Source of the DNA: an uncultured Gammaproteobacteria bacterium
GTDB lineage: Bacteria > Pseudomonadota > Gammaproteobacteria > Arenicellales > JAANXG01
DNA length: 41,151 bases
Assembly (NCBI GenBank): GCA_945787105.1
Contig: CALZGZ010000084.1
Span: forward strand, 1-41,151
Direction: 5' to 3'
Numbering within the stretch: the first letter of the stretch is position 1; the number at the start of each line of letters is the position of its first letter. A model generated the notes under the pieces. It saw only the letters and a program-made list of their open reading frames with translations, had not been told where the DNA came from and made no database searches. The position numbers were made by a program, and so were the translations under genes. Positions 4,187 to 39,689 of this stretch are shown in pieces.

Positions 4187-4341
4187 TACTATTCTCGCAA
4201 CAGAGGATGGATAACTGGTGTTGAACCGGGATGGCGTGTGATTGTGAGACGAACCTGGCGTAACCCGATTGCGTTACCCGTCCATTCTCTTTCTAATACC
4301 CATATAGCAAACATTTATAATGTTCTAGGAGGATGAATCGA

Positions 4342-5325
4342 ATGCGATTTTTAGTTAGTGCTCTCACCTTATTGGCATTCATGTTGTCCGCGCCGGCGGC
4401 GAACGCGGCCCCGATCAAGATCAAGTTCTCGCACGTGGTGGCGGTGAACACGCCCAAGGGCCAGATGGCGGAAAAATTCAAGGCCCTGGTCGAGGAGCGT
4501 CTGGCCGGCAAGGTCACGGTCCAGGTATTCCCCAATGCGCAGCTGTTCGGTGACAACAAGGTGCTCGAAGCCCTGCTGTTGGGCGACGTCCAGTTGGCAG
4601 CACCATCGTTGTCGAAGTTTCAGAAGTACACCAAGAGCCTGCAGATATTCGACTTGCCGTTCCTGTTCAACGATATCGGCGCCGTGGACAAGTTTATGGC
4701 CACCGACGCCGGCGTGAAACTGCTGCGCGCCACCGAGAAAAAGGGCCTGGTGGGTCTGGGTTTTCTGCACAACGGGATGAAGCAGTTGTCGTCGAGTTCG
4801 CCACTCAAGGTGCCTGGCGACGCGGCCGGGCTCAAGTTTCGGATCATGACCTCGGATGTGCTCGCCGCCCAGTTTCAGGCGGTCAAGGCGTCACCACAGA
4901 AAAAGCCGTTCTCGGAGGTGTTCACCTTGTTGCAGACCAAGGCCATCGACGGTCAGGAGAACACCTGGTCCAACATCTTCTCCAAGAAATTCTTCGAAGT
5001 TCAAGAACACATCACCCACTCGGATCACGGTTACCTGGGTTACATGGTGGTCACCTCTTCGGAGTTCTGGAACGGCTTGCCCGATGATATTCGCGGTGGG
5101 GTCGAGACGGCCCTGGCAGAGGCCATCGCTTTTGGCAACCAGGTTGCCAATGACAAAGCCATCAGTGACAAGAAGGCGATCATGGATTCGGGGCGCAGCA
5201 AGATCATCGAGTTGAACGCAGACCAGCGCGGTCAGTGGGTCGAGGCGATGAAGCCGGTGTGGAAGAAGTTCGAAGGTGACATCGGCAAGGACTTGATAGA
5301 CGCGGCGCTGGCGGCGAACAAGTAA
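4342..5325 (+). CDS. dctP: TRAP transporter substrate-binding protein DctP
   Basis: Periplasmic receptor that captures C4-dicarboxylates and delivers them to the DctQM membrane complex. The 327-residue product starts with a clear signal peptide (MRFLVSALTLLAF, cleavage near ANA-AP) and then the DctP-family fold: IKIKFSHVV, GKVTVQVFPNAQLFGDNK, LPFLFNDI, and GQENTWSNI near the ligand site. The open frame begins at an ATG at 4333, but AGGAGG (4327-4332) touches that codon. The ATG at 4342 sits 9 nt after the site and gives a normal signal peptide, so I choose it. It is the first gene of the dctPQM operon behind the sigma-54 promoter, and a degraded paralogue follows the operon. Confidence 0.95.
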   Translation: MRFLVSALTLLAFMLSAPAANAAPIKIKFSHVVAVNTPKGQMAEKFKALVEERLAGKVTVQVFPNAQLFGDNKVLEALLLGDVQLAAPSLSKFQKYTKSLQIFDLPFLFNDIGAVDKFMATDAGVKLLRATEKKGLVGLGFLHNGMKQLSSSSPLKVPGDAAGLKFRIMTSDVLAAQFQAVKASPQKKPFSEVFTLLQTKAIDGQENTWSNIFSKKFFEVQEHITHSDHGYLGYMVVTSSEFWNGLPDDIRGGVETALAEAIAFGNQVANDKAISDKKAIMDSGRSKIIELNADQRGQWVEAMKPVWKKFEGDIGKDLIDAALAANK

Positions 5326-7315: not shown

Positions 7316-8336
7316 ATGCGAACCCAGTGGTCTTTGGTTAGGCTGAGTTGGGCCATGCGCGTGATGGTCCTGATAGGCATGCTGGTTGTGGTTGCGGTCA
7401 ACGTCCACGCTGCCGAGCCGATCCTGATACGCTTTTCTCACGTCACCAGCGAGGCCACCCCCAAGGGATACGGCGCTGTCCTGTTCAAGAAACTGGCGGA
7501 AGAACGGTTGGCCGGGAAAGTGCGCGTCGAGATCTATCCCCGCGCTTTAAAATTCAACGATGACCAGGCGCTGCTCGCCTTGCTGTTCGGGGACATCGAA
7601 CTCGCGGCACCGTCGTTTGCCAAATTCCGCAGTTTTTCGCGACAGATACAGGTGTTTGACCTGCCGTTTTTGTTTTCGGATATCGATGCGGTGAACCGAT
7701 TCCAGCGCAGCGAGGCTGGCGTTAAGCTGCTCGATTCCATGCTGTCTTGGGATCAAGGGGCTTGCTTACTGGGATAATGGCATGCGCGTGATGTCGGCAA
7801 ACCGTGTGTTGCGGACACCTCAAGACTTTAAACGCCTGCGGTTTCGCATCGAGCCCTCGGCGGTGATGCAGGCCCAGTACCGGGCCCTGGGAGCGGCGAC
7901 CGTGCCGATGCCGTTCAAACACGTCCGAGAGGGGTTGAAAATGGGTTTAGTGACTGGGCAGGAGAATGCGTGGTCCAACATCCGCTCCCAGGGGTTTCAC
8001 GACTTTCAGAAGTACTTCACCGAGGCCCGGCACAGTTTCCTCGGCTACATGTTGGTCACCAATGCAAATTTTTGGACCAACTTGCCCGCGGAAATCCGTG
8101 TTGAATTGGACAAGATCATCCAGCAAGTGACCGTGGAAGTGAACAAAAACGCCCGCGAGAAAGCCAAAATGGACCGCCAACGGATCATTGATTCTGAACA
8201 GGCGGAAGTGATCACCTTGACCGATCCCGAACTCGAGGAATGGCGCGCGTTGCTCACACCGATTTGGAAGCAATTCGAGTCGCAGATCGGAACAGAAATC
8301 ATGGAACAAGCGATGCAAGCCGACCAGGCTCGCTAA
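7316..8336 (+). pseudogene. Second dctP gene, interrupted by a +1 frameshift
   Basis: A paralogue of the upstream dctP split between two frames. The 5' part (7316-7777) encodes a signal peptide and the N-terminal half (PILIRFSHV, AEERLAGKVRVEIYP, VFDLPFLFSDI). The 3' part continues in the next frame (KGLAYWDNG at about 7755 through GQENAWSNI to the stop at 8336). The total of 1021 nt is one base over a codon multiple. Removing one T at about 7747-7748 would give SGIKGLAYWDNG, joining the halves perfectly, so a single-base insertion is the simplest cause. It could be real decay or a sequencing error. The ATG follows the dctM stop with no gap, so the ancestral gene was the last of a P-Q-M-P operon. 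Confidence 0.85.
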
Positions 8337-20852: not shown

Positions 20853-22295
20853 CTACTTCGAATTTGCCTGGTACAACTCCAAGTATGAGCGGGCGCTTTG
20901 ACGCCAACTAAAATCCCAGCTCATACCGGCAAGCATTAAAGCGCGCCAGCTTTGTTCATGATCAAAGAGCTTGACGCCTTGGTGTATGGTTTTAATTAAT
21001 ACATCCGCCGTAAATTCGGTGAATGTCAAACCGGTCGCGGTTTGATTCGCGAGGTTTTGTGGCGTCGCGGGAACGACGGTATCCGCCAATCCGCCGGTTT
21101 TGGACACGATGGGCACCGTCCCGTAATGCATGCTATACATTTGATTCAATCCGCATGGCTCAAAGCGAGACGGCATCAAAAATATGTCGGCTGCGGCCTC
21201 GATTTGATGTGACATTTCTTCATCGTATCCAATCCGAACATGTAGCCGTCCGGGATGTGCGCGTGCGATGTCCTGTAATTTGCGCTCCAGCACCGGATCA
21301 CCCATTCCCAAGACCACAAATGGATATCCATGGTTCAACAATTCCGGGAGCGCCGCGATTAACAAATCGATGCCTTTCTGCTCGACCAACCGTCCAACAA
21401 AACCGAACAGCGGCGCACTATCGTCGCGTAGCAATGACCATCGCTCCATGCATGCCGTCTTGTTTTGGAGCTTGCCCTCGAGGGCATCCGCATGGTAATG
21501 AAAATCAATATACGGATCGGTGTTGGGGTCCCATTCGTCGTAGTCGATCCCATTGAGAATTCCCACCAGACGGTCGGATCGGTGCCGTAACAGGCCTTCA
21601 AGCCCACACCCCAGATCACTGGTCTGAATTTCGCGTGCGTAGGTCGGGCTGACTGTGGTGATCCAGTCGCTAAACACGATCCCACCTTTTATGAAAGACA
21701 TCTGATCCAGATATTCGACGCCATCCATTGCCCATAGTTCTTCTTTTAGCCCTAAGCTCGTGAACGTAGACCTCGGGAATATTCCCTGATAGGACAGATT
21801 ATGGATTGTGAAAATCTTTACAACATCTTGATCGTCATCGATGAGAGGCGCCACCATCCCGGTCTGCCAGTCATGGCAGTGGATAACATCCGGCCGCCAA
21901 CTAAGAAGGTCCTCATTGTGAATGACGGCAACGGCAATCCGGCACAATAGAAAAAACCGCTCAGCGTTGTCATGCCAGGGCATCCCCGTATCGTCCAAGT
22001 AGGGATTGCCGTCGCGGTCGAAGGCGGGTCCATAGTCGACCAGCCAAACTTTCGATGCGGCGTTGCGCATTTCGGTTTCAAGGATCCGGACACCAGCCGG
22101 TAACCCTGGCAACTGTATTTCAGCAATGGTTTTTCTCGTCTGGAGCTTGGCGATCGCCGCCCGATACGCGGGGATCAATACACGTACGTCATGTCCCAGC
22201 CGGGCTTGCGCCTGGGGCAGGCTCGCACAAACGTCCGCCAGGCCACCGGTCTTAATGAAGGGATAGGCCTCGCTGGCTACGTGCAGTATCCTCAT
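20853..22295 (-). CDS. glgA: Glycogen synthase GlgA
   Basis: Transfers glucose from ADP-glucose to the growing glycogen chain in the cytoplasm. The 480-residue protein is a GT5 glycosyltransferase with the N-terminal ADP-glucose-binding KTGGLADV motif (residues 16-23), the HCHDWQTG segment, and a C-terminal domain containing PSRFEPCGLNQMYSM and the second KTGGLADTV copy. Length matches the usual 470-490. It begins one base after the glgB stop (TGAGATG), so the two are translated from one message. GlgC, which makes its substrate, is encoded divergently beyond glgB. Confidence 0.95.
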   Translation of the reverse strand: MRILHVASEAYPFIKTGGLADVCASLPQAQARLGHDVRVLIPAYRAAIAKLQTRKTIAEIQLPGLPAGVRILETEMRNAASKVWLVDYGPAFDRDGNPYLDDTGMPWHDNAERFFLLCRIAVAVIHNEDLLSWRPDVIHCHDWQTGMVAPLIDDDQDVVKIFTIHNLSYQGIFPRSTFTSLGLKEELWAMDGVEYLDQMSFIKGGIVFSDWITTVSPTYAREIQTSDLGCGLEGLLRHRSDRLVGILNGIDYDEWDPNTDPYIDFHYHADALEGKLQNKTACMERWSLLRDDSAPLFGFVGRLVEQKGIDLLIAALPELLNHGYPFVVLGMGDPVLERKLQDIARAHPGRLHVRIGYDEEMSHQIEAAADIFLMPSRFEPCGLNQMYSMHYGTVPIVSKTGGLADTVVPATPQNLANQTATGLTFTEFTADVLIKTIHQGVKLFDHEQSWRALMLAGMSWDFSWRQSARSYLELYQANSK

Positions 22296-22296
22296 C

Positions 22297-24495
22297 TCAG
22301 ACGAGTTTCAAGACGATCCCTGCGAGGGGGGGCAACGTCAATGAAATCGAATGGGGCTTGCCCATCCACGGAATCGACTCCGCGTCGACCTGCCCACTGT
22401 TACCCACGTTAGAGCCTCCGTAGTGTTCCGAGTCTGAATTGAATATCTCACCGTATGGCCCTGGTTCAGGAACGCCTAAGCGATATTGCTTCCTTATCAC
22501 CGGGGTGAAGTTGAGGGCAACGACAACGAATCCGTTTTCGTCCTTTCTTAGGAACGAAAGAACGGATTGCTCGGTGTCATGACAATCGAGCCACTCGAAG
22601 CCACTGGGGTCAAAATCAAAATGATGTAGAGGCCGTGACTCTCGATAGAGATTATTGAGGTCACGCACTAACCGCTGGACCCCTGCATGACCGCCGAACT
22701 GCAGCACATACCAGTCCAAGGCGTTGTCGTGAGACCACTCGGGTCCCTGTGCGAACTCCGAGCCCATGAACAGAAGTTTTTTGCCGGGGTGTGTGTATTG
22801 ATAAGTGTAAAGCAGACGCACATTCGCCAGACGCTGCCACTCATCTCCGGGCATCTTGTACAGCAGCGATCGCTTTCCGTGAACGACTTCGTCGTGGGAG
22901 AAGGGGAGCACGAAATTTTCGGTAAAACAATAAAGCTGACTGAAGGTGAGCAGATCGTGATGATATTTTCGGTGTACGGACTCAAGGGAGAAATACGACA
23001 AGGTATCGTTCATCCATCCCATGTTCCACTTCATACTGAAACCCAAGCCGCCTACGTATACCGGTCGCGACACCATTGGCCAAGCAGTGGATTCCTCCGC
23101 GGTCACAATAACACCGGGAAACTGCTCATGTACGACTTTGTTAAGTTGACGCAGAAAATCAATGGCCTCGAGATTTTCGCGGCCGCCGTATTTATTAGGC
23201 ACCCAATCACCTTCGTCGCGCGAGTAGTCCAGGTACAACATCGATGCCACCGCATCCACCCGCAGGCCGTCAAAATGGAATTCCTGCAACCAGTAGACGG
23301 CACTTGATAAGAGGAAATTTGCCACCTCATTCCGGCCATAGTTGAAGATTAGAGTGCCCCAATCCCGGTGCTCACCGCGACGCGGATCGCTATGCTCATA
23401 GAGTGCGGTCCCATCGTATAGGGCCAGCGCATAACGATCTTTGGGGAAATGGGCGGGCGGCCAATCGAGCAGCACCCCAATGTTGTTTTGATGACAAAGG
23501 TCGATGAAATAGCGCAAATCATCTTGCCGACCATAACGGGAAGTAGACGCGAAATAGCCGACCGTCTGATAGCCCCAGGAGCCCTCGAAGGGGTGTTCGG
23601 TAATCGGCAACAGTTCGATATGCGTATAGCCCAGATCCGCTACGTATGGGATCAGTTGATCTGCGAGATCACGATAATTAAGCGCCTTATTTGATTCACT
23701 ACGACGCCAAGATCCGGCGTGCACCTCGTATATTGCTATGGGTGCGTGTAGCCAATCCCATTGCTCGCGACGCTTCATCCAATCTTGATCACGCCATTGG
23801 TATCGCGTGTCCGCGGGAATCAGATTTGCCGTATCCGGGGCAATTTCGTATTGTCGTCCGTACGGGTCGGCTTTCAGAAACACCGCACCGGTGTCTCGAT
23901 TTCGGATCTCGTACTTGTATAACCCGTCTGGCTCAAATCCGGGTATGAACAACTCCCACACGCCATTTTCACCGCGAACGCGCATGGGATGTTGGCGTCC
24001 GTCCCAATCGTTGAAATTACCCACGACACTGACCCTGGCCGCATTCGGCGCCCAGGTCGCAAACAATGCGCCTTCGACTTGGTCGCAGGTACGCGCACTG
24101 GCGCCTAATATCCGGTAGATATGCCAGTGCTTGCCTTGAGTGAATAGATGCAGATCGTAATCCGACAGTTGCGGTGGAAAGCAGTACGGATCGTAATAAA
24201 CGCTTGCGTGACCTGCCTTATTCACACGCCGAAGCCGGTAGCGTTCGGGAACCTGATTCGCCGGCCCGGACCATTCGAAGAAATCCGACCCGGTTAATCT
24301 CTCCAGAGAAACACCCGATTCCATGATCTCGATGCGTTGCGTGCCTGGGGCAAATACCCGCACAATAACCTGGTCGCCGGTCTGGTGGCGGCCTAAGTAT
24401 GTAAATGGATCGTGATGTTGCGCTTTCTCGATGAGTTCCCGTTCGGAAGCGAGCATTTTTAATTCATCCAAGATTTGTTGGCCTGATGTTATCAT
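22297..24495 (-). CDS. glgB: 1,4-alpha-glucan branching enzyme GlgB
   Basis: Introduces alpha-1,6 branches into glycogen. The 732-residue protein (GH13) has an N-terminal carbohydrate-binding region ([33 protein letters not shown]), and the catalytic barrel with [37 protein letters not shown] (nucleophile Asp), [10 protein letters not shown] (acid/base Glu) and [12 protein letters not shown] (third Asp). The frame is open to 24546, but that would overlap glgC. The ATG at 24495 gives a length matching family members and leaves a 12-nt gap to the glgC start. No strong ribosome-binding site is visible for either choice. Confidence 0.95.
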
Positions 24496-24507
24496 TGAGA
24501 TGGTTTT

Positions 24508-25809
24508 ATGGTTAAAAAAACACGCAATAACGGGGAACTCGACCACGCCACGCCCGAACGCTTCGTCAGTCTCCTTACGAAAGACACGATTGCTCTGGTG
24601 TTAGCTGGCGGTCGTGGCTCGAGATTGCATGACCTGACCCAATGGCGGGCCAAACCTGCGGTACCGTTTGCCGGCAAGTTTCGAATCATAGACTTTACCT
24701 TGTCCAACTGCATAAACTCGGGTATACGCCAGATTGGGGTCTTGACCCAGTATAAGGCGCACTCGCTCATTAAACACATACAAAAAGGATGGGGTTTTTT
24801 GGGTGGACAGCTCGGGGAGGCGGTTGACTTATTACCGGCGTCCCAAAGGGTGAGCGAGGAATCCTGGTATGCCGGTACTGCCGATGCCGTCTATCAGAAT
24901 CTCGACATCATCCGCACCTACGACAAGCATTACATGCTGGTCCTAGCCGGCGACCATGTCTATAAAATGGATTACGGCCGCATGCTCGCGTTTCATGCAG
25001 AGCAGAAGGCGGATCTAACCGTGGGATGTATCGAAGTACCGGTCCATGAGGCCAGCTCGTTTGGGGTGATGTCGGTGAACGACAACCACCGGATACTCGA
25101 GTTCGATGAAAAGCCCCAACACCCCAAACCGCTTCCCGACAACAGTGCGATAGCCTTGGCGTCAATGGGAATTTACGCGTTCAATACAGAATTTTTGTAT
25201 GAACAGATCATCAAAGACGCGGATACCCCCGCATCCAGACATGATTTTGGCGGTGACATCATCCCCAGCGTGATCCGCGACTATCGCGTATACGCCTATT
25301 CGTTCCGCGACGCGCAAAGCGGCACACAATCCTACTGGCGGGATGTGGGCACCGTGGATGCATACTGGAAAGCAAACCTGGAGCTCATCGAGCCGGTGCC
25401 GGAACTGAACCTCTACGACAAAAATTGGCCGATTTGGACCCATCAGGAACAACTGCCTCCGGCCAAATTCATATTTGACGATGAGGACCGTCAAGGCATC
25501 GCCATCAACTCGATGGTTTCGGGCGGTTGCATCATCCAGGGCGCATTGATCCGGCATTCCCTGTTGTTTTCCCAGGTGGTCGTGCGCAACGCCTCGCAGA
25601 TCATCGACTCGGTTGTTCTGCCCGAAGTGAACATCGGCCAGAACTGTAAGATCAGACATGCCATTATCGATAAAGGATGCCGCATTGACGACAATATGAC
25701 GATCGGCTGGGATGAAAAGTCGGATGCCGAGCGTTTTTATGTCTCCCCCGAGGGCGTGGTGCTGGTGACTCCTGACATGCTGGGCCAAGCACTGCATTAT
25801 GTCCGCTAA
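24508..25809 (+). CDS. glgC: Glucose-1-phosphate adenylyltransferase GlgC
   Basis: Makes ADP-glucose from ATP and glucose-1-phosphate, the committed and allosterically regulated step of glycogen synthesis. The 433-residue protein has the nucleotidyltransferase motif [21 protein letters not shown] (about 31-51) with [11 protein letters not shown], the substrate-site segment [19 protein letters not shown], and a C-terminal left-handed beta-helix of hexapeptide-like repeats. The start at 24508 is 12 nt from the divergent glgB ATG. Its end overlaps the next gene by 11 nt, consistent with a glgC-GH57-malQ operon. Confidence 0.95.
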
Positions 25810-27496
25810 CGGGCGCCTCAACGTGGTCTTGTGCTGGCATATGCACCAGCCCGAGTATCGCGATGTATTGACCGGGCAATATCTACAGCCCTGGACGTAC
25901 CTGCACGCCATCAAGGACTACACCGACATGGCCGGCCACCTGGAGTCCAGTCCCGGTGCCCGTGCGGTGGTGAATTTTGTGCCCATCGTCCTTGAGGAGA
26001 TCGCGGACTACCACGCCCAGATCGCCGCATTCTTGGACGGCGGTGAGACGATCAGCGATCCGTTGCTCGCGGCGCTGGCCGACGATTCGGGTCCGATCTC
26101 CACACAGGGCCGCCTGGAACTGGCGCAGCTGTGCCGCCGAGCTAACGAGCAACGGATGATTAAGCGGTTCCCACCCTATGCGGACCTGGTGGAAACCATA
26201 AAGTCCCATCAAGAACGTGTGCAAGCGCTCGATTATCTTAACGATCAGTTCTTCCGCGATCTGCTGGTCTGGTATCACCTGGCTTGGCTGGGCGAGACGA
26301 TTCGCCGCACCGACATGCGAGTGCGACAGCTGATGGACAAGTCGCGCCACTTTACACATGATGATCAAATTCTGCTGCTGCGAGTACTCGGCGAACTGAT
26401 CGGTGGGGTCCTGGAGCGCTACCGCAAGCTGTCGGCAAATGGACAGGTCGAGCTGTCGATGACCCCCTACGCACATCCGATGTTGCCGCTTTTAGTCGAT
26501 TTCAAATCGGCCCGCGAAGCAATACCGGATATCCACCTGCCCCCATCGTCTTACCCAGGCGGTATCGAGCGGGTGCGCTGGCACATCGAGACCGGCCTTC
26601 AATCGTTCAATGAGAGCTTTGGAATGAAACCGATCGGTTGTTGGCCCTCCGAAGGCGGCATCAGCGACGCCATCTTGCCGATGCTTGCCGAGTATGGTTT
26701 CCACTGGGTAGCCAGCGGCCAGTCAGTGTTGCGTAACAGCCTGGAACGCGGGCATCGTCCAACCGATAATAGCGCCTGGCCCTATCGCCCGTACCGGCTG
26801 AACGAATTACCGCTGTACGGATTTTTCCGTGACGACGGACTGTCGGACGCCATCGGTTTCACCTATTCAGACTGGCAGGCTGATGACGCGGTCGCCGATT
26901 TGATCCATCGACTGGAGCACATTGCCTCGCAACTGGACGCACCGGATCGACATGTTGTATCCATCATCATGGACGGAGAAAACGCCTGGGAACACTACCC
27001 GGATAACGGATACCACTTCCTGACAAGCTTATACGAGTCTTTGTCGCAACATTCGGCGATTCATCTGACAACCTATCGCGAGTTTCTCAACGACAACCGG
27101 CAGCATGCCGACAAGCTACCCAGCGTGTGCGCGGGAAGCTGGGTCTATGGGACGTTTAGCACCTGGATCGGCGACGCGGACAAAAATCGCGCATGGGAGA
27201 TCTTGACCGAAACGAAACGGACCTTCGACAAAGTCACGGCCCACAGTAAATTCTCCGAACAAGATCGCATGCAACTAAACCGCCAACTCGCCATATGCGA
27301 GGGTTCGGACTGGTTTTGGTGGTTCGGCGACTATAATCCCATCGAGTCGATCGAGGACTTCAGCGATTTGTACCGACGGCATATCAAAAACCTGCATCAA
27401 ATGTTGGGCGAACCAGCCCCCAAGAGTCTTGATTCGGCCTTCGGCCATGGCGGCATCTCTGAACAGGGTGGCGTCATGCGTCGCGGAGGCGGTTGA
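25799..27496 (+). CDS. Glycoside hydrolase family 57 amylase-like protein
   Basis: A retaining alpha-glucan-acting enzyme of family GH57, probably an amylase or glucanotransferase working on glycogen. The 565-residue protein begins [14 protein letters not shown], the family's N-terminal His motif. It has [13 protein letters not shown] with the expected catalytic nucleophile Glu, [17 protein letters not shown] with the expected acid/base Asp, and a C-terminal [10 protein letters not shown] segment of the associated helical domain. It overlaps glgC by 11 nt and ends within one base of the malQ ATG, so the three are translationally linked. Glycine-rich tail ([17 protein letters not shown]) is unremarkable. 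Exact substrate cannot be inferred. Confidence 0.88.
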
Positions 27497-28989
27497 TGTA
27501 TTCCGATTGCGGCTGCCTACCTAGTCGTGAATTCGGCATCCTACTGCATATCACCTCATTACCCGGGGTCGGCGCACATGGCGATCTTGGATCCGACGCG
27601 TACCGATTTGTCGATTTTTTGGCGTCGAGCGGCGCGCGCGTATGGCAGGTATTACCCTTGGTGCCTACTCACCATGGAGGCTCCCCTTATCTTGGGGAAT
27701 CGGCCCATGCTGGAAACCCTTTGCTGGTCAGCCCCCAGCAGCTGCTCGATGACGACTTGGTCTCCGGCGAACAATTCGACGAATTCATTCATAGCTCGAA
27801 CGCCGGTTGCGACTACAAATCTGCACATCACCGACTCTTGATGCACGCGTTTTCCCGCTATCTTGAATTCGACCGCAAACTGGCAGACGACATTACTCGC
27901 TTTGCAAACCACAACGACTATTGGCTGCCCGATTACACGCTGTATCGGGCCATCAAACACCTGCACAACAATGCACCGTGGTTCGATTGGCCCGCGCCAT
28001 TACGGGACCGAGACGCCCAGGCACTTGCTGCGGCACGTACAGAATATCGCGACGAAATTCAATTTGGCGCGTTCGCGCAATATGTGTTCTGGAAACAATG
28101 GAACAGATTGAAGACCTACGCAAACCAGCACGATATTCGCATCATGGGCGATATGCCGATGTTTGTCGCCCACGACAGCGCTGAAGTGTGGGCCTTCCCG
28201 GACTACTTTCAACTCGACGCCACTGGCCATGCCGTTAGTGTCGCAGGCGTGCCGCCGGACTATTTCTCCGTTACCGGACAGCGCTGGGGGAATCCGTTAT
28301 ATGAATGGCGACACATGCAACAAGACGGTTTTACTTGGTGGATAAACCGGTTTCGTTCACAGCTCAAGCTATTTGATCTATTGCGTGTCGATCATTTCCG
28401 GGGGTACGAATCATGTTGGTCGATTCCTGCGCAATGCGAAGACGCGACCCAAGGTCGTTGGCGCAACAGTCCCGGCGACGCCCTGTTCGCAACGCTCTCA
28501 CAGGCATTTGATCCGCTGCCCTTGATTGCTGAAGATTTGGGCGACATCACAGACGCGGTTCACGAATTGCGCCAACGCCACGGGTTCCCGGGAATGCGGG
28601 TACTGCAGTTTGCGTTTGACGGTGGCGCCGACAATCTGCACTTGCCGCACAACCATGTCGAATGCAGCGTCGTATATACGGGCACCCATGACAATAATAC
28701 GACACTTGGCTGGTTTCACCAGCTCGCGCCTGCGCAACAGCAACGGGTCTACGAGTACCTGGGCAATCCCCAAGTAACCATGCCATGGGCGCTGATTCGG
28801 GCAACCATGGCGTCGGTGGCGAGACTGGGAGTATTACCTTTGCAGGACATCATGGAACTGGATGACACCCATCGCATGAACATGCCCGGCACGGGAAGCG
28901 GGAACTGGTCATGGCGGTTCGACTGGTCCAGTCTTCCTTTCGGCACTGCAGACCGGCTGGCCCATCTTGCGTCGGTCTATGGACGCTAG
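27496..28989 (+). CDS. malQ: 4-alpha-glucanotransferase MalQ
   Basis: Disproportionates maltooligosaccharides in glycogen turnover. The 497-residue protein (GH77) has SREFGILLHITSLPG and LPLVPTHHGGSPYLGESAHAGNP split over the first 85 residues, the nucleophile motif LLRVDHFRGYESCW, the acid/base Glu in LIAEDLGDIT, and the third Asp in YTGTHDNNTTLGW. The ATG at 27496 overlaps the previous stop (TGATG) with CGGAGG 6 nt upstream; a TTG at 27493 is less likely. The last codon is followed by TAG (28987-28989), whose G is the first base of a complete repeat element. The homologous C-terminus (TADRLAHLASVYGR) looks complete. Confidence 0.94.
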   Translation: MYSDCGCLPSREFGILLHITSLPGVGAHGDLGSDAYRFVDFLASSGARVWQVLPLVPTHHGGSPYLGESAHAGNPLLVSPQQLLDDDLVSGEQFDEFIHSSNAGCDYKSAHHRLLMHAFSRYLEFDRKLADDITRFANHNDYWLPDYTLYRAIKHLHNNAPWFDWPAPLRDRDAQALAAARTEYRDEIQFGAFAQYVFWKQWNRLKTYANQHDIRIMGDMPMFVAHDSAEVWAFPDYFQLDATGHAVSVAGVPPDYFSVTGQRWGNPLYEWRHMQQDGFTWWINRFRSQLKLFDLLRVDHFRGYESCWSIPAQCEDATQGRWRNSPGDALFATLSQAFDPLPLIAEDLGDITDAVHELRQRHGFPGMRVLQFAFDGGADNLHLPHNHVECSVVYTGTHDNNTTLGWFHQLAPAQQQRVYEYLGNPQVTMPWALIRATMASVARLGVLPLQDIMELDDTHRMNMPGTGSGNWSWRFDWSSLPFGTADRLAHLASVYGR

Positions 28990-29257
28990 CCCGCATATTG
29001 CACCAAGGATCCCGGATGATGGCGAAGGGATCGGGCGGCTGGACGTAGCGCTGGAGCGAAATGCATAGCCGTAGCTATGCGTTGAGTGAAGCGCAAGTTC
29101 AGGCGTTCGAGACCGAGCCAGCGCCGGGATAGTCCCGCCCCTGTTTTTGCCAAGCAATTTGAAGCGTCGATGTCGCCATTTCCCGGAATAAACGGTACGG
29201 GCCTCTCCGCCGTATCGCTATGAATAGGGGCGGGGCGCCTTGGTGCAATATACGGGC
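28989..29257. repeat. Complete 269-bp TA-flanked inverted-terminus element
   Basis: The left end GCCCGCATATTGCACCAAGG and the right end, which reads GCCCGTATATTGCACCAAGG on the minus strand, are inverted copies. TA lies on both sides (28987-28988 and 29258-29259), as for IS630/Tc1-type targets. There is no reading frame that could be a transposase, so this is a MITE-like element. It fills the gap between the convergent malQ and glgP genes. It shares a 47-bp internal block (29086-29132) with the copy at 39801 and a right-half block with copies at 33074 and 33820. Confidence 0.85.
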
Positions 29258-29259
29258 TA

Positions 29260-31809
29260 TTACAACCAGAGCATACGCCCCATTTCCAACCGGTGAGAAA
29301 GGCTGTGATGGTGCGGATACGCCCGCAGCTTATAGGAGTAACGGCCACAATGGGCAAGACCAATCTCACCCTCATAAATCTGCCAGCCATCTTTTGCTAT
29401 GCCCGTTGCGGACAACGGATATTGCCGCGGATCCATCAGGCGATCCGCCTTAGATTTGTCGCTTATCAGGCATTCGACACGCAGGTCATCGGGCTTCAGC
29501 CCATTTAGCAGTACCTCCACAACCAGCTTCGCCTCATCACCCACGCGTATGTTTTCCGGTGGGATTTCTGATCGTCGAATCTTCACACCGTGCCACGACT
29601 TTTGTAGCTTCTTCTTCCAGGCAACCAACTGTTTGGCCCAGGCTGCGTCGTCGGCGTTGAACTTGCGCCCCAGCTTTGCCGCCGGCGAATAATACTGGCT
29701 TATGTAGTCCGTCAACATCCGCTGCGCGCTGAAACGGGAAAGTGCCGATATCATCGCTTGTTTCGCAACCTGTACCCAGTCCGAGGAATAACCTTGGCCA
29801 TTGCGCTTGTAGTAAAGGGGCAGAATCTCCCCTTCCAAAAGATCGAATGCGCCGGATGCTTCGATGTAGTCCCGCTCATGGTGGTCCGTCGCAGCAAGAT
29901 AGGGACTGATGGCCCAGCCGTTGTCACCCTCGAATCCCTCTTCCCACCAGCCATCCAAAGAGCTGAAATGCGGAACACCATTTATGGCAGCCTTTTGTCC
30001 GGAGGTGCCACTGGCTTCCATCGGGTATTCCGGGGTATTGAACCAGACATCCACACCGGTGACCAAAAAGCGCGCCAACTCAATGTCATAGGCTTCGAGC
30101 AACACGATTTTTCCTTCGAAGTCCGGGCGCCGCGAGAGCTGGTAAATCGCGTGGAGGTATTCCTGACCCGGCCCATCCTGAGGATGCGCTTTACCGGCAA
30201 ATATGAATACCACCGGATGCTCACTGTCCTGCACTAACCTGGTCAATCTGTCCATATCCTTGGTCAACAGGGTTGCTCGTTTGTAGGTTGCGAAACGCCG
30301 TGCAAAACCAATAACCAGCGTTTCGGGATTGAGGCATCGAGTCAATCGTCTGATCTGTGAATGACTCAGTCCATTCCTACGCCCCTGTTGCGTGATGCGT
30401 TGTTTTGCCTCCTCCATTAGCAGCGCCTTGATTGTCTGATGGGTCGCCCAGAACGCGCGGTCGGGAATATTTTTGATTGCCGCCCAAAAATCACGATCCA
30501 CCAACCGGTCGCGCCACTCCCCCGATAGGTGTTGATCAAAGATACGCACCCATTCGTGGTGAATAAACGACAGTACATGAACACCGTTTGTTACGTGACC
30601 TATCGGATTCTCATCAGGCTCGATTTGTGGCCACACGAAACTGCTCAACCTCGAAGACACTTCACCATGAAGCCGGCTGACGCCGTTCCGGAAGCGCGAT
30701 CCACGAAGCGCCAAGGCCGTCATATTGAAACTGCCCCCGTGACCCGGGCTGTCTCCCAACTCTAACAACCTATCGGTATCTACCTGTAGTTCATCCAGGA
30801 AATCCCCTAAATAGCGTGAGATCAGGTCCCGCGGAAAGATGTCGTGACCCGCGGGGACCGGGGTATGGGTGGTGAAAACAGTGGACGCCGCAACCGTTTC
30901 AAACGCGGCATCGAAGGCTACATTTGGTGACACCAACTCGCGGCATCGTTCCAGAATTAGCAATGCGGCATGACCTTCGTTGATATGCCAAGCCGTCGGT
31001 TGCAGACCCAGGGCACGCAGTGCCTTGACCCCGCCTATACCAAGTAATATCTCTTGCTGTATGCGCGTGTCCGCCCCGCCCCCATATAGCTGACGGGTTA
31101 TGAACCGGTCGTTCTCTCCGTTTTGCTCCAAATCCGTGTCTAGCAGGTAAATCGAGATAATACCGATGTTGGCTTCCCAGACCTTGAAGGCCACGTCGCG
31201 ATCTTCGAGGCGTATCGTGAGCGTGAGGTCTTGACCCGACTTGTCGGTCACCGGGTATATCGGTAACTCGTTAAAATTCAGGTCCGCGTACTGTGCATGT
31301 TGTCGGCCATTACCATCGATCTGCTGCTGGAAGTATCCATGACGATAAAGTAACCCCACACCGACAAACGGCAATCCAAGATCGCTCGCCTCTTTGCAGT
31401 GATCCCCGGCGAGAATACCCAGTCCCCCGGAGTAGATCGGTAGACTCTCGTGCACACCGTATTCAGCACAGAAATAGGCGACAAGATCGTGATCCTTGTC
31501 CAAGTTTTTAGTCACCGTTGCGGAATGCCGGTGTTTGAGATAGGTGTCAAAGGACGAAACACAACTCACGTAATGCCGCAGATACAAAGGGTCACCGGCG
31601 GCTTGGTTGAGCCGATCCTGATCAACCCGGCGCAAGAACAAGCGGGGATTATGACCGGTCGCTTCCCACAGCTCCGGATCCAGCGTAGAAAAGAGGTGGC
31701 GAATTCCGCGGTCCCAGCTGTAGAGCAGGTTGTTGGCGAGATCGGTCAGCCGCGCAAGGGCCTTGGGAATGGTAGGACGTACTTCCAGTGAGAAAGTGGT
31801 GCCAGTCAT
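29260..31809 (-). CDS. glgP: Glycogen/alpha-glucan phosphorylase GlgP
   Basis: Releases glucose-1-phosphate from glycogen using phosphate. The 849-residue protein (GT35) has the N-terminal LTDLANNLLYSWD, FCAEYGVHESLPIYSGGLGILAGDH (over about 90-115), HTPVPAGHD, and the pyridoxal-phosphate lysine region EASGTSGQKAAINGV. It matches the bacterial/archaeal type that starts close to VRPTIPKALARL. The frame is open to 31920, with other ATGs at 31854 and 31920; none has a strong ribosome-binding site and residues before 31809 do not look family-like. The stop lies directly against the TA flank of the repeat element. GlgP completes the glycogen cycle with the divergent gene block. Confidence 0.92.
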   Translation of the reverse strand: MTGTTFSLEVRPTIPKALARLTDLANNLLYSWDRGIRHLFSTLDPELWEATGHNPRLFLRRVDQDRLNQAAGDPLYLRHYVSCVSSFDTYLKHRHSATVTKNLDKDHDLVAYFCAEYGVHESLPIYSGGLGILAGDHCKEASDLGLPFVGVGLLYRHGYFQQQIDGNGRQHAQYADLNFNELPIYPVTDKSGQDLTLTIRLEDRDVAFKVWEANIGIISIYLLDTDLEQNGENDRFITRQLYGGGADTRIQQEILLGIGGVKALRALGLQPTAWHINEGHAALLILERCRELVSPNVAFDAAFETVAASTVFTTHTPVPAGHDIFPRDLISRYLGDFLDELQVDTDRLLELGDSPGHGGSFNMTALALRGSRFRNGVSRLHGEVSSRLSSFVWPQIEPDENPIGHVTNGVHVLSFIHHEWVRIFDQHLSGEWRDRLVDRDFWAAIKNIPDRAFWATHQTIKALLMEEAKQRITQQGRRNGLSHSQIRRLTRCLNPETLVIGFARRFATYKRATLLTKDMDRLTRLVQDSEHPVVFIFAGKAHPQDGPGQEYLHAIYQLSRRPDFEGKIVLLEAYDIELARFLVTGVDVWFNTPEYPMEASGTSGQKAAINGVPHFSSLDGWWEEGFEGDNGWAISPYLAATDHHERDYIEASGAFDLLEGEILPLYYKRNGQGYSSDWVQVAKQAMISALSRFSAQRMLTDYISQYYSPAAKLGRKFNADDAAWAKQLVAWKKKLQKSWHGVKIRRSEIPPENIRVGDEAKLVVEVLLNGLKPDDLRVECLISDKSKADRLMDPRQYPLSATGIAKDGWQIYEGEIGLAHCGRYSYKLRAYPHHHSLSHRLEMGRMLWL

Positions 31810-31950
31810 AAAGCAATTGATTAGATCGTTGTCAAAAAATATAGTTTTTGTCATAAATCCAGGTTTGCGGGCGTAGACCTTGGTTGTCACCGCGGTATCG
31901 CATCGCGCGCTGGCCGGCATATAACCCCACCCGCCACCGGAAATATCCAG

Positions 31951-34076: not shown

Positions 34077-35921
34077 GTGGATATGGAAAACGCCGACCAA
34101 CGAACCGGATTTGAAACCACTCTGAGGCCCGACGCGGCACCTGACTCGGGCTATGACTGGTCATACATCGTAAACATAGCGCGTAAACGTAAGCGCAACC
34201 TTGCCGTCGCCAACATCCTTGCCGTGATAGCAGTGGTTGCGGCCGTACCGACTCCACTGCTAATGCCGCTGATGGTAGACGAAGTACTACTCGATCAGCC
34301 CGGATTCCTGGTCAATCTCATGAATCAGATTATGCCGGTCAGCTGGCACGGTCCGATGCTGTATATCGGCCTCATACTTGTGGCAACCGTGCTACTAAGA
34401 TTCACGTCGATCTGGCTCAACGTGCTGCAGACTCGGGAATTCACACTGATTTCAAAGGACGTGACATATCGGATGCGCCGCGACTTGCTGATGCATTTGG
34501 AGCGAGTATCGATGTCGGAGTATGAAACATTGGGCAGTGGCGCCGTGTCGTCACGTTTCGTTACCGACATCAATTCCATCGATGAATTCGTCGGACAGTC
34601 GGTGAGCAAACTGCTGGTAGCGGTCCTGAGCTTGGTTGGCGTGACCATTATCCTGCTGTGGATACACTGGCCGCTGGCGTTGTTCATTCTATTCATGAAC
34701 CCCTTGGTGGTCTTCTTTACCGTGGCGCTGGGTCACAAGGTCAAAGTGCTAAAAGAAAGGGAGAACAGCGCTTTCGAGCTGTTCCAACAGAGCTTGACCG
34801 AGACGCTCAATGCGATACAACAAATCCGCGCGAGCAACCGTGAACATCACTATATCCGCGGTGTGGTAGACAAAGCGCGGGGGATTAGAACCCATTCGGC
34901 ATCGTTTTCCTGGAAATCGGATGCGGCCAATCGATTTTCATTTGGCGTGTTTTTGATCGGCTTCGATGTATTTCGAGCGATCAGTATGCTTATGGTGGTG
35001 TTCTCGGATCTCACGATCGGACAGATGCTCGCTGTATTCGCCTACTTGTGGTTCATGATGGCACCGGTGCAGGAGGTATTGAATATTCAATACGCCTATT
35101 TCGGCGCCAAAGCGGCGCTGACCAGAATCAACGAGCTGTTAGCGTTGCACCAGGAACCGCGTTACCCGCACTTGAAGAACCCGTTTTCCGGCACCAACAC
35201 GGTGGCTATACACATTGAAGATGTGAGCTTCGCCTATGTCCCAGGCGAACCGGTCCTCAAGCACGTAAACCTTAAGATCCAACGCGGAGAGAAGGTTGCC
35301 TTGGTCGGCGCTTCCGGAGGGGGGAAATCCACCCTGGTTCAGGTGATCCTCGGCATGTATCCGATACAGAGCGGTCACCTCTATTTTGATGGTGCATCGA
35401 TCACCGAGATCGGTCTCGATGTGGTGCGCGATAACGTCGCCACCGTGCTACAACATCCGGCAATGTTAAATGATACGGTGCGCGCAAACCTAACTCTAGG
35501 ACGTGCCGCCGATGACGAAAAGCTATGGCATGTCCTCGGCATAGCCCAGCTAAGCGGTGTGGTGGAGTCAATGCCGGATGGATTGGACACGATGATTGGC
35601 CGTGACGGCGTGCGGTTGTCCGGTGGTCAGCAGCAACGCCTGGCCATTGCACGAATGATCTTATCGGATCCCAAGGTCGTCATTCTCGACGAGGCGACGT
35701 CCGCTCTGGATAACGAAACCGAAGCACAATTACACCGCGCCCTAGGAAAACATCTAGAGGGACGCACCACCTTGATCATCGCCCACAGGTTGAGCGCGGT
35801 AAAACAAGCCAACCGTGTCTATGTGTTCGAGGATGGACACATTATCGAACAAGGGTCTCATGAGCAGTTGATGAATACGGATGGTCTATACCACAAACTT
35901 TACAGTCGCACCGCCCACTAA
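34077..35921 (+). CDS. ABC exporter, fused membrane and ATPase domains
   Basis: A 614-residue half-transporter of the MsbA/ABCB type, acting as a homodimer to export a substrate across the inner membrane. The N-terminal half has six hydrophobic helices (first at about 45-68, LAVANILAVIAVVAAVPTPLL over that span). The C-terminal half has an ATPase with Walker A GASGGGKST (about 411-419), signature LSGGQQQR (about 514), Walker B VVILDEATSALD (about 533-544) and the H-loop IIAHRLS. There is no peptidase or substrate-binding domain. No adjacent gene suggests its substrate. A second ATG two codons downstream (34083) is also possible; neither has a clear ribosome-binding site. Confidence 0.9.
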   Translation: MDMENADQRTGFETTLRPDAAPDSGYDWSYIVNIARKRKRNLAVANILAVIAVVAAVPTPLLMPLMVDEVLLDQPGFLVNLMNQIMPVSWHGPMLYIGLILVATVLLRFTSIWLNVLQTREFTLISKDVTYRMRRDLLMHLERVSMSEYETLGSGAVSSRFVTDINSIDEFVGQSVSKLLVAVLSLVGVTIILLWIHWPLALFILFMNPLVVFFTVALGHKVKVLKERENSAFELFQQSLTETLNAIQQIRASNREHHYIRGVVDKARGIRTHSASFSWKSDAANRFSFGVFLIGFDVFRAISMLMVVFSDLTIGQMLAVFAYLWFMMAPVQEVLNIQYAYFGAKAALTRINELLALHQEPRYPHLKNPFSGTNTVAIHIEDVSFAYVPGEPVLKHVNLKIQRGEKVALVGASGGGKSTLVQVILGMYPIQSGHLYFDGASITEIGLDVVRDNVATVLQHPAMLNDTVRANLTLGRAADDEKLWHVLGIAQLSGVVESMPDGLDTMIGRDGVRLSGGQQQRLAIARMILSDPKVVILDEATSALDNETEAQLHRALGKHLEGRTTLIIAHRLSAVKQANRVYVFEDGHIIEQGSHEQLMNTDGLYHKLYSRTAH

Positions 35922-35930
35922 TCGTTCTAA

Positions 35931-36005
35931 GCCCGCATGGTTCATCAGCATTCGGGATGCTGACACAGGACTCGTGTTGCTGGGCGGCTGATGAGAAATA
36001 CAGGC
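35931..36005. repeat. Short (75-bp) inverted-terminus element
   Basis: Left end GCCCGCATGGTTCATCAGC; right end reads GCCTGTATTTCTCATCAGC on the minus strand and is followed by TA (36006-36007). An inner palindrome TCAGCAT-TCGGG-ATGCTGA is similar to the copy at 37977. The convergent dioxygenase-like gene ends in TAG made of this TA plus the first base of the element. Confidence 0.6.
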
Positions 36006-36616
36006 TAGATCCGTTCCAACAGGACTTTCAAACTTGATTGGGTAATCCGCGACACAATTGGATTGGAATAAGCACTCAAGAACTTCCTCCGATGGCCGGT
36101 CTGCGGGTCGTAGATGTAGCGTTTTACGGTGGCGATATTGGCTCCATAGACATGGATACTGATGGATCGTTTATCATTTAGGGAGTTTGATATTTGATGA
36201 ATATCTCCAATCCTAGGCGACGCTAAAAAGATTTCTCCGGGGCCTAATTGTTGGGGGTCTCCCGCTATCAACTGATGCCCGTCCGGGTCTCGGCCGAAAG
36301 GCCGACAGCTCAAGGCACCGTCCATGACTCCAATGATGCCCCAAATCGAGAGGTCGTATATTGGCGTGCCTTGCCGTGGTCCCCATACGGCGCTGACTAC
36401 CGAAAAGCGTTCCCATGGATCCAAATACAAGAGATATTGTTGATACCACTGCGGATCGGGCTCGGCAAATTCTCCTGGCAACCAATCTTTATGGCCGACG
36501 AGATCGGCGAGTAGCCGCTTACCGTCTTCAAGAATTCGAGATTCATCCTCCGCGAACTCGCTCACGAGCCGACTCAACGACTCAACGAATTCCCGGAATC
36601 TAGCAACCTTGTGCAT
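36005..36616 (-). CDS. Cysteine-dioxygenase-like cupin lacking two metal ligands
   Basis: A 203-residue protein of the cysteine/3-mercaptopropionate dioxygenase family, which normally binds iron through three histidines. The family segment is clear: YLLYLDPWERFSVVSAVWGP (61-80), the WGIIGVMDGAL loop, and DIHQISN with the third histidine (His140). The usual TPIHDH motif reads TPIYDL: Tyr87 (TAC) and Leu89 (CTC) replace two metal-binding histidines, each one base from a CAC codon. As written the protein is unlikely to be an active dioxygenase. The frame is otherwise intact, so it may be a recently inactivated gene or a binding protein with a new role. A palindrome lies 62 bp upstream (36679-36691). 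Confidence 0.8.
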   Translation of the reverse strand: MHKVARFREFVESLSRLVSEFAEDESRILEDGKRLLADLVGHKDWLPGEFAEPDPQWYQQYLLYLDPWERFSVVSAVWGPRQGTPIYDLSIWGIIGVMDGALSCRPFGRDPDGHQLIAGDPQQLGPGEIFLASPRIGDIHQISNSLNDKRSISIHVYGANIATVKRYIYDPQTGHRRKFLSAYSNPIVSRITQSSLKVLLERI

Positions 36617-36678
36617 GGGGCGTCCAAAAGATGCAGATATCGGTCACACCGTTAGGCATATAATCGGCGGCATTGGTC

Positions 36679-36691
36679 CCAACTAGGTTGG
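36679..36691. promoter_or_regulatory. Palindrome CCAAC-TAG-GTTGG
   Basis: A second perfect copy of the palindrome at 17050-17062, differing only in the 3-nt centre. It lies 62 bp upstream of the dioxygenase-like gene on the minus strand, where an operator would be expected, and about 125 bp past the cyclase stop codon. Confidence 0.4.
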
Positions 36692-36816
36692 ACCAGGAAA
36701 ACCGATAAGAGTTTTGCGCGACCGTGATTTGACTCGCATCGTAAAGCGTCCCCTGGGTACGTTTAGAGGATCACGCCAGGCGGCAACACATAGTGCGTCT
36801 AAGAGGCGCCGTGCCG

Positions 36817-37875
36817 CTATTTGGCGACAATGACCCGATTTCGTCCTTGCCGTTTCGCCTGATACAAGGCTTGATCCGAGCGCTGCAACAGCCATTGGCC
36901 GAGATCGCTGCCGGCGCCGGATAAGGGTTTTTCCAGCACCGCAACTCCCGCCGAAACGGTGATACGAAGCCGCCTCTTGTCTTGCGCGTTGAACTGCAGG
37001 TTCTTGATTTCCCGATGATGGCGCCGGGCTATCTTGGCACCATGAACTAGCTTGGTTTCGGGCAGAATGAGTACGAATTCCTCGCCACCATAACGCGACA
37101 AGATGTCGCTGGCGCGTAGCCCCTTACATAACGCATCGGCCACGGATTTCAAAACACTATCTCCCACCGAATGGCCGTATTGATCATTGATACTCTTGAA
37201 ATGATCAATGTCCAGCATGATGCACGTCAGCGGATGCCCATAACGACGACAGCGTTCAACTTCTTCGTCCAAACGGCGTTCTAGAAACCGCCGATTGGGG
37301 ATATCTGTCAACGGATCGGTCAAACCGTGCCGTTCGAGCCTGGCGACGTTTACTGTATTACGTATACACAAAGCGATGGTTGCCGACAGATGCTCCAGTA
37401 GCTCAGTCCCCGCGTCCGCCGAAAAATGTTGCGGGTCGTAACTACCCTGGGCGAGACACCCAATCAACTTTCCGGATACGATAAGTGGAGAAACCGCCAT
37501 GGACCCAAGGGACTTTTTGCAGTGTGGGAAAAGCCGTTGCTGCGTAGCCTCATCGCAACTGCCAACCAACGGCCGTAACGGCTGCGGAAACCATTGGTAT
37601 AGCTCACTGTCGCTTACCATGACAAGACTTTCTTCAATCGCATATGGCACATCGCGTTGCGCCATAATACGAACGATTTCATAATCAAGGTTGAGGCATA
37701 TGATCGATGCCGCATCAACATTTCGAAAAGTACGTTTAATACCGGCGGTCACGCTATGTACTAGTTGATGAAACGTCTCAGCACCGATAGCCTCTATTTC
37801 GATTTTTCGGAAACCGGACCAGATTTTCTCATTGGTCCGCACCTGCCTCTTGAGTGCGGCTAATTCTTGGCGCAT
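36817..37875 (-). CDS. Diguanylate cyclase with DUF484/GAF-like sensor domain
   Basis: Makes the second messenger cyclic di-GMP. The 352-residue cytoplasmic protein has a short coiled coil (1-20), a DUF484/GAF-like domain (about 30-175, with GKLIGCLAQGSYDPQHFSAD near its end) and a GGDEF domain with the active-site motif GGEEF (263-267). The RASD sequence at 254-257, five residues before it, is the product-inhibition I-site, so activity should be feedback controlled. The first visible ATG is 37875, but coding-like codons for IDHELAA directly precede it, after a TAA at 37900-37902. The start may therefore be slightly upstream at a rare codon, or the 5' end has been lost. No ribosome-binding site is seen at the ATG. 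Confidence 0.88.
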   Translation of the reverse strand: MRQELAALKRQVRTNEKIWSGFRKIEIEAIGAETFHQLVHSVTAGIKRTFRNVDAASIICLNLDYEIVRIMAQRDVPYAIEESLVMVSDSELYQWFPQPLRPLVGSCDEATQQRLFPHCKKSLGSMAVSPLIVSGKLIGCLAQGSYDPQHFSADAGTELLEHLSATIALCIRNTVNVARLERHGLTDPLTDIPNRRFLERRLDEEVERCRRYGHPLTCIMLDIDHFKSINDQYGHSVGDSVLKSVADALCKGLRASDILSRYGGEEFVLILPETKLVHGAKIARRHHREIKNLQFNAQDKRRLRITVSAGVAVLEKPLSGAGSDLGQWLLQRSDQALYQAKRQGRNRVIVAK

Positions 37876-37976
37876 TGCAGCAAGTTCGTGGTCGATGGAT
37901 TAAAGGAAAAGCTCCGCCAATACAGTTGGTCGTGCCACATCCAAAAACCACGCAACTTCGACGATGCGTTGCGCAA

Positions 37977-38151
37977 GTCCGCATTTCTCACCAGGATCCC
38001 GAATGCTGATGCAGGGCGCGCGCAGCTAACCTCCCTAATCATGTCTGCGCAGGAAACAGTCCGGCAGCGTCTATTCCAGGAAATGACGACATTCGACTCT
38101 CGAGGTTGCTTGGCAACAATAGGGGCGCGGCGCCTGGTGAGACATGTGGGC
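37977..38151. repeat. Shortened (175-bp) inverted-terminus element
   Basis: Left end GTCCGCATTTCTCACCAGG and right end, reading GCCCACATGTCTCACCAGG on the minus strand, are a well-matched inverted pair, followed by TA (38152-38153). Inside is the block CCAGGAAATGACGACATTCGA shared with 33074 and 33820, but in the opposite orientation relative to the ends. Confidence 0.65.
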
Positions 38152-38438
38152 TAACATGATGCCTCAGCTCCGATAACCGGAACCATCAGTGGCGAGTGAC
38201 AATTTCATTACACCTCAGTGACGCCGAATCAACCGCCATTTTATCACTGATTCGCGTACATCAAACCCTAATTGAGTCGAGAAGAAAAAAACGGGTACTA
38301 CGGCTATCCCTCGAAGGACGAAGTTTTACACCTTGGATTCTCGTGACCGTTGCCGAGGATACATTGACGTTGTCCGCGGCGGCGTTGGTGTATATTAAGC
38401 TTTGAAAACGCAGAATGACACTTTGTAAACTGTAACCA
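38152..38438 (+). other. Gap before dadA with an unrecognised 69-codon frame
   Basis: The stretch between the repeat and the DadA-like gene contains a frame from GTG at 38196 to 38405 (HLSDAESTAILSLIRVHQTL, basic centre RRKKRVLRL). I recognise no family, and there is only a weak GGCGA ribosome-binding site, so I do not call it a gene. The dadA promoter should lie here; I see no convincing -35/-10 pair. Confidence 0.25.
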
Positions 38439-39689
38439 ATGGGTAAGCAAAACAAGAATTTTGATTTGGCCGTATTGGGTGCCGGTGTGGTGGGTGTCAA
38501 CACCGCGTACTGGGCACAGCGGGCCGGATTGTCGGTGGCAGTGATAGACAGACAACCCGATGCAGGTCTCGAAACAAGCTTCGCCAATGGCGGTCAGATC
38601 GCGGTCAGTCATGCCGAACCCTGGGCCAATCCCAAAGCCCCCCTACAAGTACTCAAATGGCTATTCGACAGTAACGCGCCTATGCTATTCAGGCCCCGCC
38701 TGGACTGGGCCCAATGGCGCTGGATCGCGGCATTTGTCGCCAACTGTACAACCAACAAAGCTGATCTCAATACCGCATCCATTGTAGGCCTGGCGATGGA
38801 AAGCCGCGAACGGCTGCGAGAAATTCGCGAACAGGAAAACATCGATTACGATCATCGCACTGAAGGCATACTGCATTTCTACCGCGATCATCGATCCTTC
38901 GAGTCCGCGCTGCATGCGGTAGATGTGATGCGAAAACATGGCTGCGAGATAGACATCATTCAACCTGACCGGGTGGTGGAATTGGAACCGGCCTTTGCGG
39001 CCAGCAAATCCCAAATCATCGGCGCAACTTACTCCCCCCGGGACGAAAGCGGTGATGCCCTCAAGTTCACCCAGGCGTTGGCACGGATCTGCGCGTCCCG
39101 GGGCGTTGAATTTTTTTTCGGGTCAGAGGCCGTCGCCTTGCACAAAAACAAAAGTGGCGAGCGCATATCAGGCACTGAAATGCGGACGCCGCATGGGTTC
39201 AGCACCCTGTGTGCGCGTGATGTCGTGGTGTGCCTGGGGAGCTATTCGGCGCCATTCTTGAAGCGATACGGGATCCGTCTCAATCTGTATCCGGCCAAGG
39301 GCTATTCAATCACCATACCAACAGACCCGTCATGCCATACGTGCCCGCTGAAAAGTTTGACCGACGATGAATATAAGCTGGTATACAGCAACCTCGGCGA
39401 CCGACTGAGAGTTGCCGGTACTGCTGAATTGAGCGGTTACAGCATCCATTTAGATCATCAGCGCTGCCGAACCATCGTTGACAATGTTCGCGGCCTGTTT
39501 CCTGACGCCGGCCACTTCGAGGAAGTACAGTTTTGGGCAGGGCTGCGTCCCACAACACCGACAAACATGCCGTACATCCAAGGGACGGGGTATGGCAACC
39601 TGTGGATCAATACCGGGCACGGAACATTGGGTTGGACATTGGGCCCCGGCAGCGGTAAACGTATCGTCGAACTGATAACAACAGCCTGA
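38439..39689 (+). CDS. dadA: D-amino acid dehydrogenase-like flavoprotein (DadA family)
   Basis: Oxidises D-amino acids to 2-oxo acids at the membrane, passing electrons to the quinone pool. The 416-residue protein begins with the FAD motif LAVLGAGVVGVNTAYWAQRAG and continues with ETSFANGGQIAVSHAEPWANP, the family's signature. The middle has GILHFYRDHRSFE, and the C-terminus has FWAGLRPTTPTNMPYIQG and NTGHGTLGWTLGPGSGKRIVEL. Length matches the family. The gene is flanked by repeat elements on both sides and has no obvious operon partner such as an alanine racemase. The exact amino-acid substrate is not determined. Confidence 0.88.
   Translation: MGKQNKNFDLAVLGAGVVGVNTAYWAQRAGLSVAVIDRQPDAGLETSFANGGQIAVSHAEPWANPKAPLQVLKWLFDSNAPMLFRPRLDWAQWRWIAAFVANCTTNKADLNTASIVGLAMESRERLREIREQENIDYDHRTEGILHFYRDHRSFESALHAVDVMRKHGCEIDIIQPDRVVELEPAFAASKSQIIGATYSPRDESGDALKFTQALARICASRGVEFFFGSEAVALHKNKSGERISGTEMRTPHGFSTLCARDVVVCLGSYSAPFLKRYGIRLNLYPAKGYSITIPTDPSCHTCPLKSLTDDEYKLVYSNLGDRLRVAGTAELSGYSIHLDHQRCRTIVDNVRGLFPDAGHFEEVQFWAGLRPTTPTNMPYIQGTGYGNLWINTGHGTLGWTLGPGSGKRIVELITTA

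Follow-up and report, generated by a model that had tools for sequence, protein, structure and literature searches.

The window, i.e., the whole stretch of 41,151 nucleotides analysed here, encodes on its minus strand (36005-36616) a relative of the bacterial 3-mercaptopropionate dioxygenases (3MDO) in which two of the three iron-ligand histidines are replaced, and all five full-length copies found in the genus carry this altered form. The gene is unlikely to have been broken recently; it probably encodes a non-enzyme of long standing with a different function. From the sequence comparisons below, we consider it likely that it is a metal-free pseudoenzyme, derived from a Gln-type thiol dioxygenase (3MDO) and kept as a non-catalytic binding protein.

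Fold and iron site of the window protein

The open reading frame starts with ATG, stops with TAG and is intact over its 203 amino acids, and homology and the fold of the predicted model both relate it to 3MDO. When compared to PDB chains with phmmer, its top matches were bacterial cysteine or 3-mercaptopropionate dioxygenases, namely 4qma (E 1.4e-56), 6xb9 (2.3e-56), 3uss/4tlf (2e-53) and 4wvz (3.3e-52), and the alignments to 4qma, 6xb9 and 3uss all display HDH where the window protein reads YDL. Indeed, codons 87-89 are TAC GAC CTC (Tyr-Asp-Leu), as the initial annotation of this gene had stated: codons 87 (36356-36358, minus strand) and 89 (36350-36352, minus strand), the first and second iron-ligand positions, are each one base away from CAC. 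The same annotation was right that the third ligand position, codon 140 (CAT, His; 36197-36199, minus strand), is kept and that the surrounding motifs (IGDIHQISN and SISIHVYGANI) are unbroken, and it missed a third change at codon 102 (TTG, 36311-36313, minus strand), where leucine replaces a glutamate. According to PMC8050391, the thiol dioxygenases with known structures have a three-histidine iron site in common.

An AlphaFold2 model built on a four-sequence alignment (mean pLDDT 67.1, pTM 0.71, residues 177-203 below 50) predicts the thiol dioxygenase cupin fold. Foldseek against the PDB ranked the Azotobacter 3MDO 6xb9 first (E 2.5e-20, TM 0.80 by query, 48% identity); only 6xb9, 4qma, 4wvz, 4tlf and 3uss appear among the first 15 rows, after which comes rat cysteine dioxygenase (CDO) with a TM of 0.65. 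Across these top 15 rows, the enzymes from Azotobacter vinelandii (6xb9), Pseudomonas aeruginosa (3uss/4tlf/4wvz) and Ralstonia eutropha (4qma) were 46-49% identical to the window protein, with TM values of 0.77-0.82 by query. The window protein shares with them Gln60, Trp78, Ser153, His155, Tyr157, Arg166 and the third ligand His140, but differs by the replacement of two of the three iron ligands and of the Glu104 equivalent, and by another C-terminal end. Mammalian CDO, which is of the Arg type, has the same cupin fold (TM mostly ~0.65 by query, ~19-23% identity), whereas the window protein has lost iron ligands and carries a glutamine at the position of CDO Arg60, the mark of the Gln type according to PMC8050391. 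By predicted fold and by sequence, the window protein is a 3MDO-type cupin, whose tail has no predicted structure because the model is moderately confident (mean pLDDT 67, residues 177-203 below 50).

The window protein scored 15.0 bits with PF05995 (CDO_I), below the curated cut-off of 23, and two orthologues scored 20.6 and 27.0; this cut-off discriminates poorly, as the HxH-keeping relative L005 also falls below it with 18.7 bits. Searched over the genus, the same profile is a weak test: it matched 3/6 genomes, and the window copy went undetected. NCBIfam gave no name for any of the seven proteins tried, and Rfam had no match over the window.

Distribution of the altered form

The gene has a copy in 6/6 genomes of the genus, five of them full length. 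Residues 87-89 read YDL in the window, FDL in G003, YDL in G004 and G001, and SDL in G002, with 77%, 75%, 64% and 51% identity to the window copy for G003, G004, G001 and G002, respectively, and 48-77% identity among the full-length copies. An alignment of orthologues, proposed as a check in the initial annotation, hence finds both histidines missing in the four other full-length copies, with H87 or H89 present in 0/5. In contrast, HxH is kept in 31/31 relatives examined outside the genus (five class loci, 23 phylum loci, two of the order and L005), as read in the alignment for 30 of them and from a tblastn row (HDH) for L047, which has a stop near the start of its frame and was left out of the alignment and tree. 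The loss of the iron-site histidines is more than chance, judging from these sequences, since it also occurs in four separately assembled genomes of the genus and in 0/31 of the outside relatives.

Thirty-five proteins, five with the altered form and 30 without it, were placed in a maximum-likelihood tree. The altered ones formed one clade (support 100/99) on a stem of 0.49 changes per column, and each of the 200 bootstrap trees had just one label change; the neighbours of this clade, L043 (G163; 53% identical to the window protein) and L044 (G405), both have HDH intact. The altered form would thus have been derived once from a Gln-type thiol dioxygenase (3MDO), before this gammaproteobacterial genus diversified.

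Outside the genus, the seven other genomes of the family had no close copy, and three of the seven displayed distant CDO-type matches alone. In the order (109 genomes), a close relative (E < 1e-45) was found in two genomes from outside the family, G054 and G018, and matches at E 1e-20 or better were found in 5 other genomes of an even class sample (369 genomes) and in 22 other genomes of an even phylum sample (398 genomes), each sample including the window's own genome. Phage records gave no match, and 61 plasmid records had one, with less than 60% identity among the best 20 of these 61.

Residues kept, residues lost and the new tail

In 49 columns of the alignment, 29 or all 30 of the relatives share the same residue. 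The five altered copies all keep 25 of these columns and all replace six, i.e., H87 (Y/F/S), H89 (L), E102 (L), V142, G162 (A) and G182; the remaining 18 are variable. Leu89 and Leu102 are themselves invariant in 5/5 altered copies, the latter standing against Glu in 30/30 relatives. Residues 102 and 166 correspond to Glu104 (P. aeruginosa numbering) and Arg168 of 3MDO (numbering matched by counting along the PDB alignment), which, according to PMC8050391, bond the serine of the Ser-His-Tyr network and bind the substrate carboxylate, respectively. Q60, W78, S153, H155 and R166 are kept in 5/5 altered copies, which therefore retain both the glutamine that stands in for the CDO arginine and the relocated carboxylate-binding arginine (codon 166, CGC, 36119-36121, minus strand), with roles again as described in PMC8050391. 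The Ser-His-Tyr triad is complete in the window protein (S153, H155, Y157).

The chain ends in a genus-specific C-terminal tail (codons 192-203; 36008-36043, minus strand), found in the five full-length copies and in the remnant of G005, the closest species, and mostly conserved across the five. Trp192, present in 26/30 relatives, is Thr in 5/5 altered copies, whose ends read TQSSLKVLLERI, TQSRLKVLLERI (two copies), TQSRLKVLLRRI, and THTRLKVLLQRV followed by three residues. If helical, the tail would be amphipathic (moment 0.39-0.52).

Residues 151-203 form the best conserved quarter in 8/10 pairs of altered copies and tie in one; in nine chosen active-type pairs, they are best in two and tied in two, and the HxH quarter (residues 53-104) is best in five. 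This regional comparison, made on pairs that are not independent, is only suggestive of a constraint shifted away from the metal site. A Fisher test for an excess of changes at positions 87, 89, 102 and 140 over the other invariant columns gave p = 0.050, for columns picked after looking, and is given no weight here.

Without its His-x-His pair, the protein would hold no catalytic iron and would carry out no thiol oxidation. Less certainly, the retained Arg166/Gln60/His pocket may bind a small carboxylate in a non-catalytic way, and/or the new tail may bind a partner.

Selection on the frame and the G005 copy

The dN/dS values ranged from 0.145 to 0.301 over the six pairs among the window, G001, G003 and G004 (pairwise dS 0.44-1.85). 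Pairs with G002 have saturated dS and give no ratio, and pairs with G005, kept apart from this intact-copy range, cover 67 codons with ratios of 0.24-0.42. For the same six pairs, values were 0.070-0.108 for the neighbouring ABC exporter, 0.050-0.130 for the hexapeptide protein, 0.072-0.121 for the DAO-family oxidoreductase and 0.085-0.191 for the HbpS-like protein, and 0.077-0.164 for the GGDEF gene (three pairs, as it is absent in G004). The altered gene thus evolves with a dN/dS ~1.5 to 3 times that of the exporter, hexapeptide and oxidoreductase neighbours, and far below 1, and its range overlaps that of active-type relatives (0.050-0.206 in nine listed close pairs with dN up to 0.14); more diverged active relatives reached 0.6, owing to saturated or biased dS. 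When neutral change was simulated on the window ORF, it stayed stop-free in 16, 3 and 0 of 2000 runs at distances of 0.22, 0.44 and 0.83, respectively. From these comparisons, the frame is maintained, under a constraint weaker than that of most neighbours.

The shared loss of catalytic residues combined with purifying selection on the rest is the pattern of a pseudoenzyme, weakened here by the G005 copy. In this closest species, neighbouring genes are 93-97% identical to those of the window. About 20 nt past the GGDEF stop, the match to the altered gene begins at codon 92, so that approximately 91 codons are lacking at its start, and a frameshift occurs near codon 158. The copy looks broken from its sequence, and the gene would therefore be dispensable there unless the assembly is wrong. 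On the same contig, the hexapeptide-repeat gene adjoining the exporter (L039, 2652-3226) matches in two overlapping pieces, which suggests a frameshift in the gene or in the assembly; assembly error may therefore contribute, although the absence of the first part is not easily accounted for in this way.

The G005 copy is the main support for a slow decay, in which the ancestor of the genus lost the catalytic residues and what remains, without a function today, is on its way to being lost. The dN/dS excess over the three neighbours points in the same direction, as does the additional loss of H140 and Y157 in G002. However, ratios as low as those above over such synonymous distances, open frames in five species when neutral frames so rarely stay open, the overlap with close active-type pairs, and the conservation of both leucines (Leu89 and Leu102) and of the greater part of the new tail all argue against drift, and we regard slow decay as unlikely, though still a serious rival. 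The initial annotation had proposed a gene either freshly inactivated or repurposed. Fresh inactivation is not borne out by the clade and dS evidence, as the loss is genus-wide and confined to one clade with pairwise dS from 0.44 to saturated and a frame under purifying selection; repurposing is the better of the two, although the copy of the closest species seems to be broken.

Genomic neighbourhood

The order ABC exporter, altered gene, DAO-family oxidoreductase (Pfam names) is found in 6/6 genomes of the genus. A DUF484/GAF-like and GGDEF gene (36817-37875, minus strand), a possible partner, lies directly upstream in the same direction, and occupies this place in 5/6 genomes, being absent there in G004; when G004 and the other seven family genomes were searched for it, without a dedicated positive control, nothing matched at E 1e-60 or better. 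The exporter (E 1e-100 or better) is present in 4/7 of these family genomes, and the stretches examined around it contain neither the altered gene nor the oxidoreductase in any of the four, the G011 contig ending with the exporter. By gene content, the altered dioxygenase and the GGDEF gene appear to form a pair specific to the genus. A metal-free sensor of small carboxylates, whose old pocket would feed cyclic-di-GMP signalling through the upstream GAF/DUF484-GGDEF protein, nevertheless seems quite improbable to us, and a strict functional link between the two genes is not supported since G004 has the altered gene without the GGDEF gene. Scanning 35900-38460 for promoters and terminators gave fewer sites than shuffled sequences did (1 versus a mean of 2.5, and 1 versus a mean of 2.3).

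Some other genes were noticed during this work. In G018, an ORF resembling rhodanese (by eye) directly follows the active-type relative; none was seen beside the altered copies, whose neighbours were named in part. Elsewhere in the window, a gene for a TRAP-type solute-binding protein (by eye) at 4333-5325 seems intact, whereas a second, paralogous one further downstream (7316-8336, plus strand) is split over two reading frames, with ORFs at 7316-7777 and 7782-8336, which looks like the effect of a frameshift. A run of ORFs at 20853-31920 resembles glycogen metabolism genes (by eye), including glycogen synthase, branching enzyme, ADP-glucose pyrophosphorylase, glucanotransferase and phosphorylase-like genes.

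Discussion

Our results favour a metal-free pseudoenzyme kept as a binding protein, and this reading has to be weighed against a protein that still holds a metal. His140 and other residues (Tyr87, or Tyr157/His155) might carry it and catalyse a different reaction, as H140, H155 and Y157 are all kept in the window protein and H140 and Y157 in 4/5 altered copies. However, residue 87 is Y, F or S depending on the species, which makes it unlikely as an alternative ligand, Leu occupies position 89 in every copy, and in G002 Phe replaces both H140 and Y157, as one would expect if metal chemistry were gone. There is therefore no evident metal site common to the copies, and a metalloenzyme with a new reaction appears very improbable.

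It is harder still to believe that the altered protein pairs, as a non-catalytic partner, with an active paralogous thiol dioxygenase in the cell. 3MDOs form dimers according to PMC8050391, and the window's genome does encode a distant CDO-type protein on contig C318 (L002, 1483-2049), for which no Pfam or NCBIfam family scored at the limits used. It belongs to the same broad family and, unlike the window protein, keeps HDH, but it is a separate and more distant lineage, 26% identical to the window protein, and was found in only 2/6 genomes of the genus (the window's genome and G005). Moreover, no second 3MDO-like match was detected in 6/6 genomes at E 0.001 (genomes 74-97% complete). The search for an intact paralogue suggested in the initial annotation thus returned no second 3MDO-like match in the window's genome, which is 97% complete, and this single distant CDO-type protein.

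Sequencing or assembly error in the window, which the initial annotation had already judged unlikely, is ruled out for practical purposes, as the changes are common to separately assembled genomes and both histidines are absent in four others on different codon backgrounds.

Pseudoenzymes are common, and none is known to have been described in the thiol dioxygenase family; by titles and abstract openings, the open-licence full-text literature also gave no dead thiol dioxygenase. A clade that lacks the iron site and keeps the pocket and the frame would offer a natural test of what the iron-free scaffold can do, and it cautions against labelling genes of this kind as cysteine dioxygenase.
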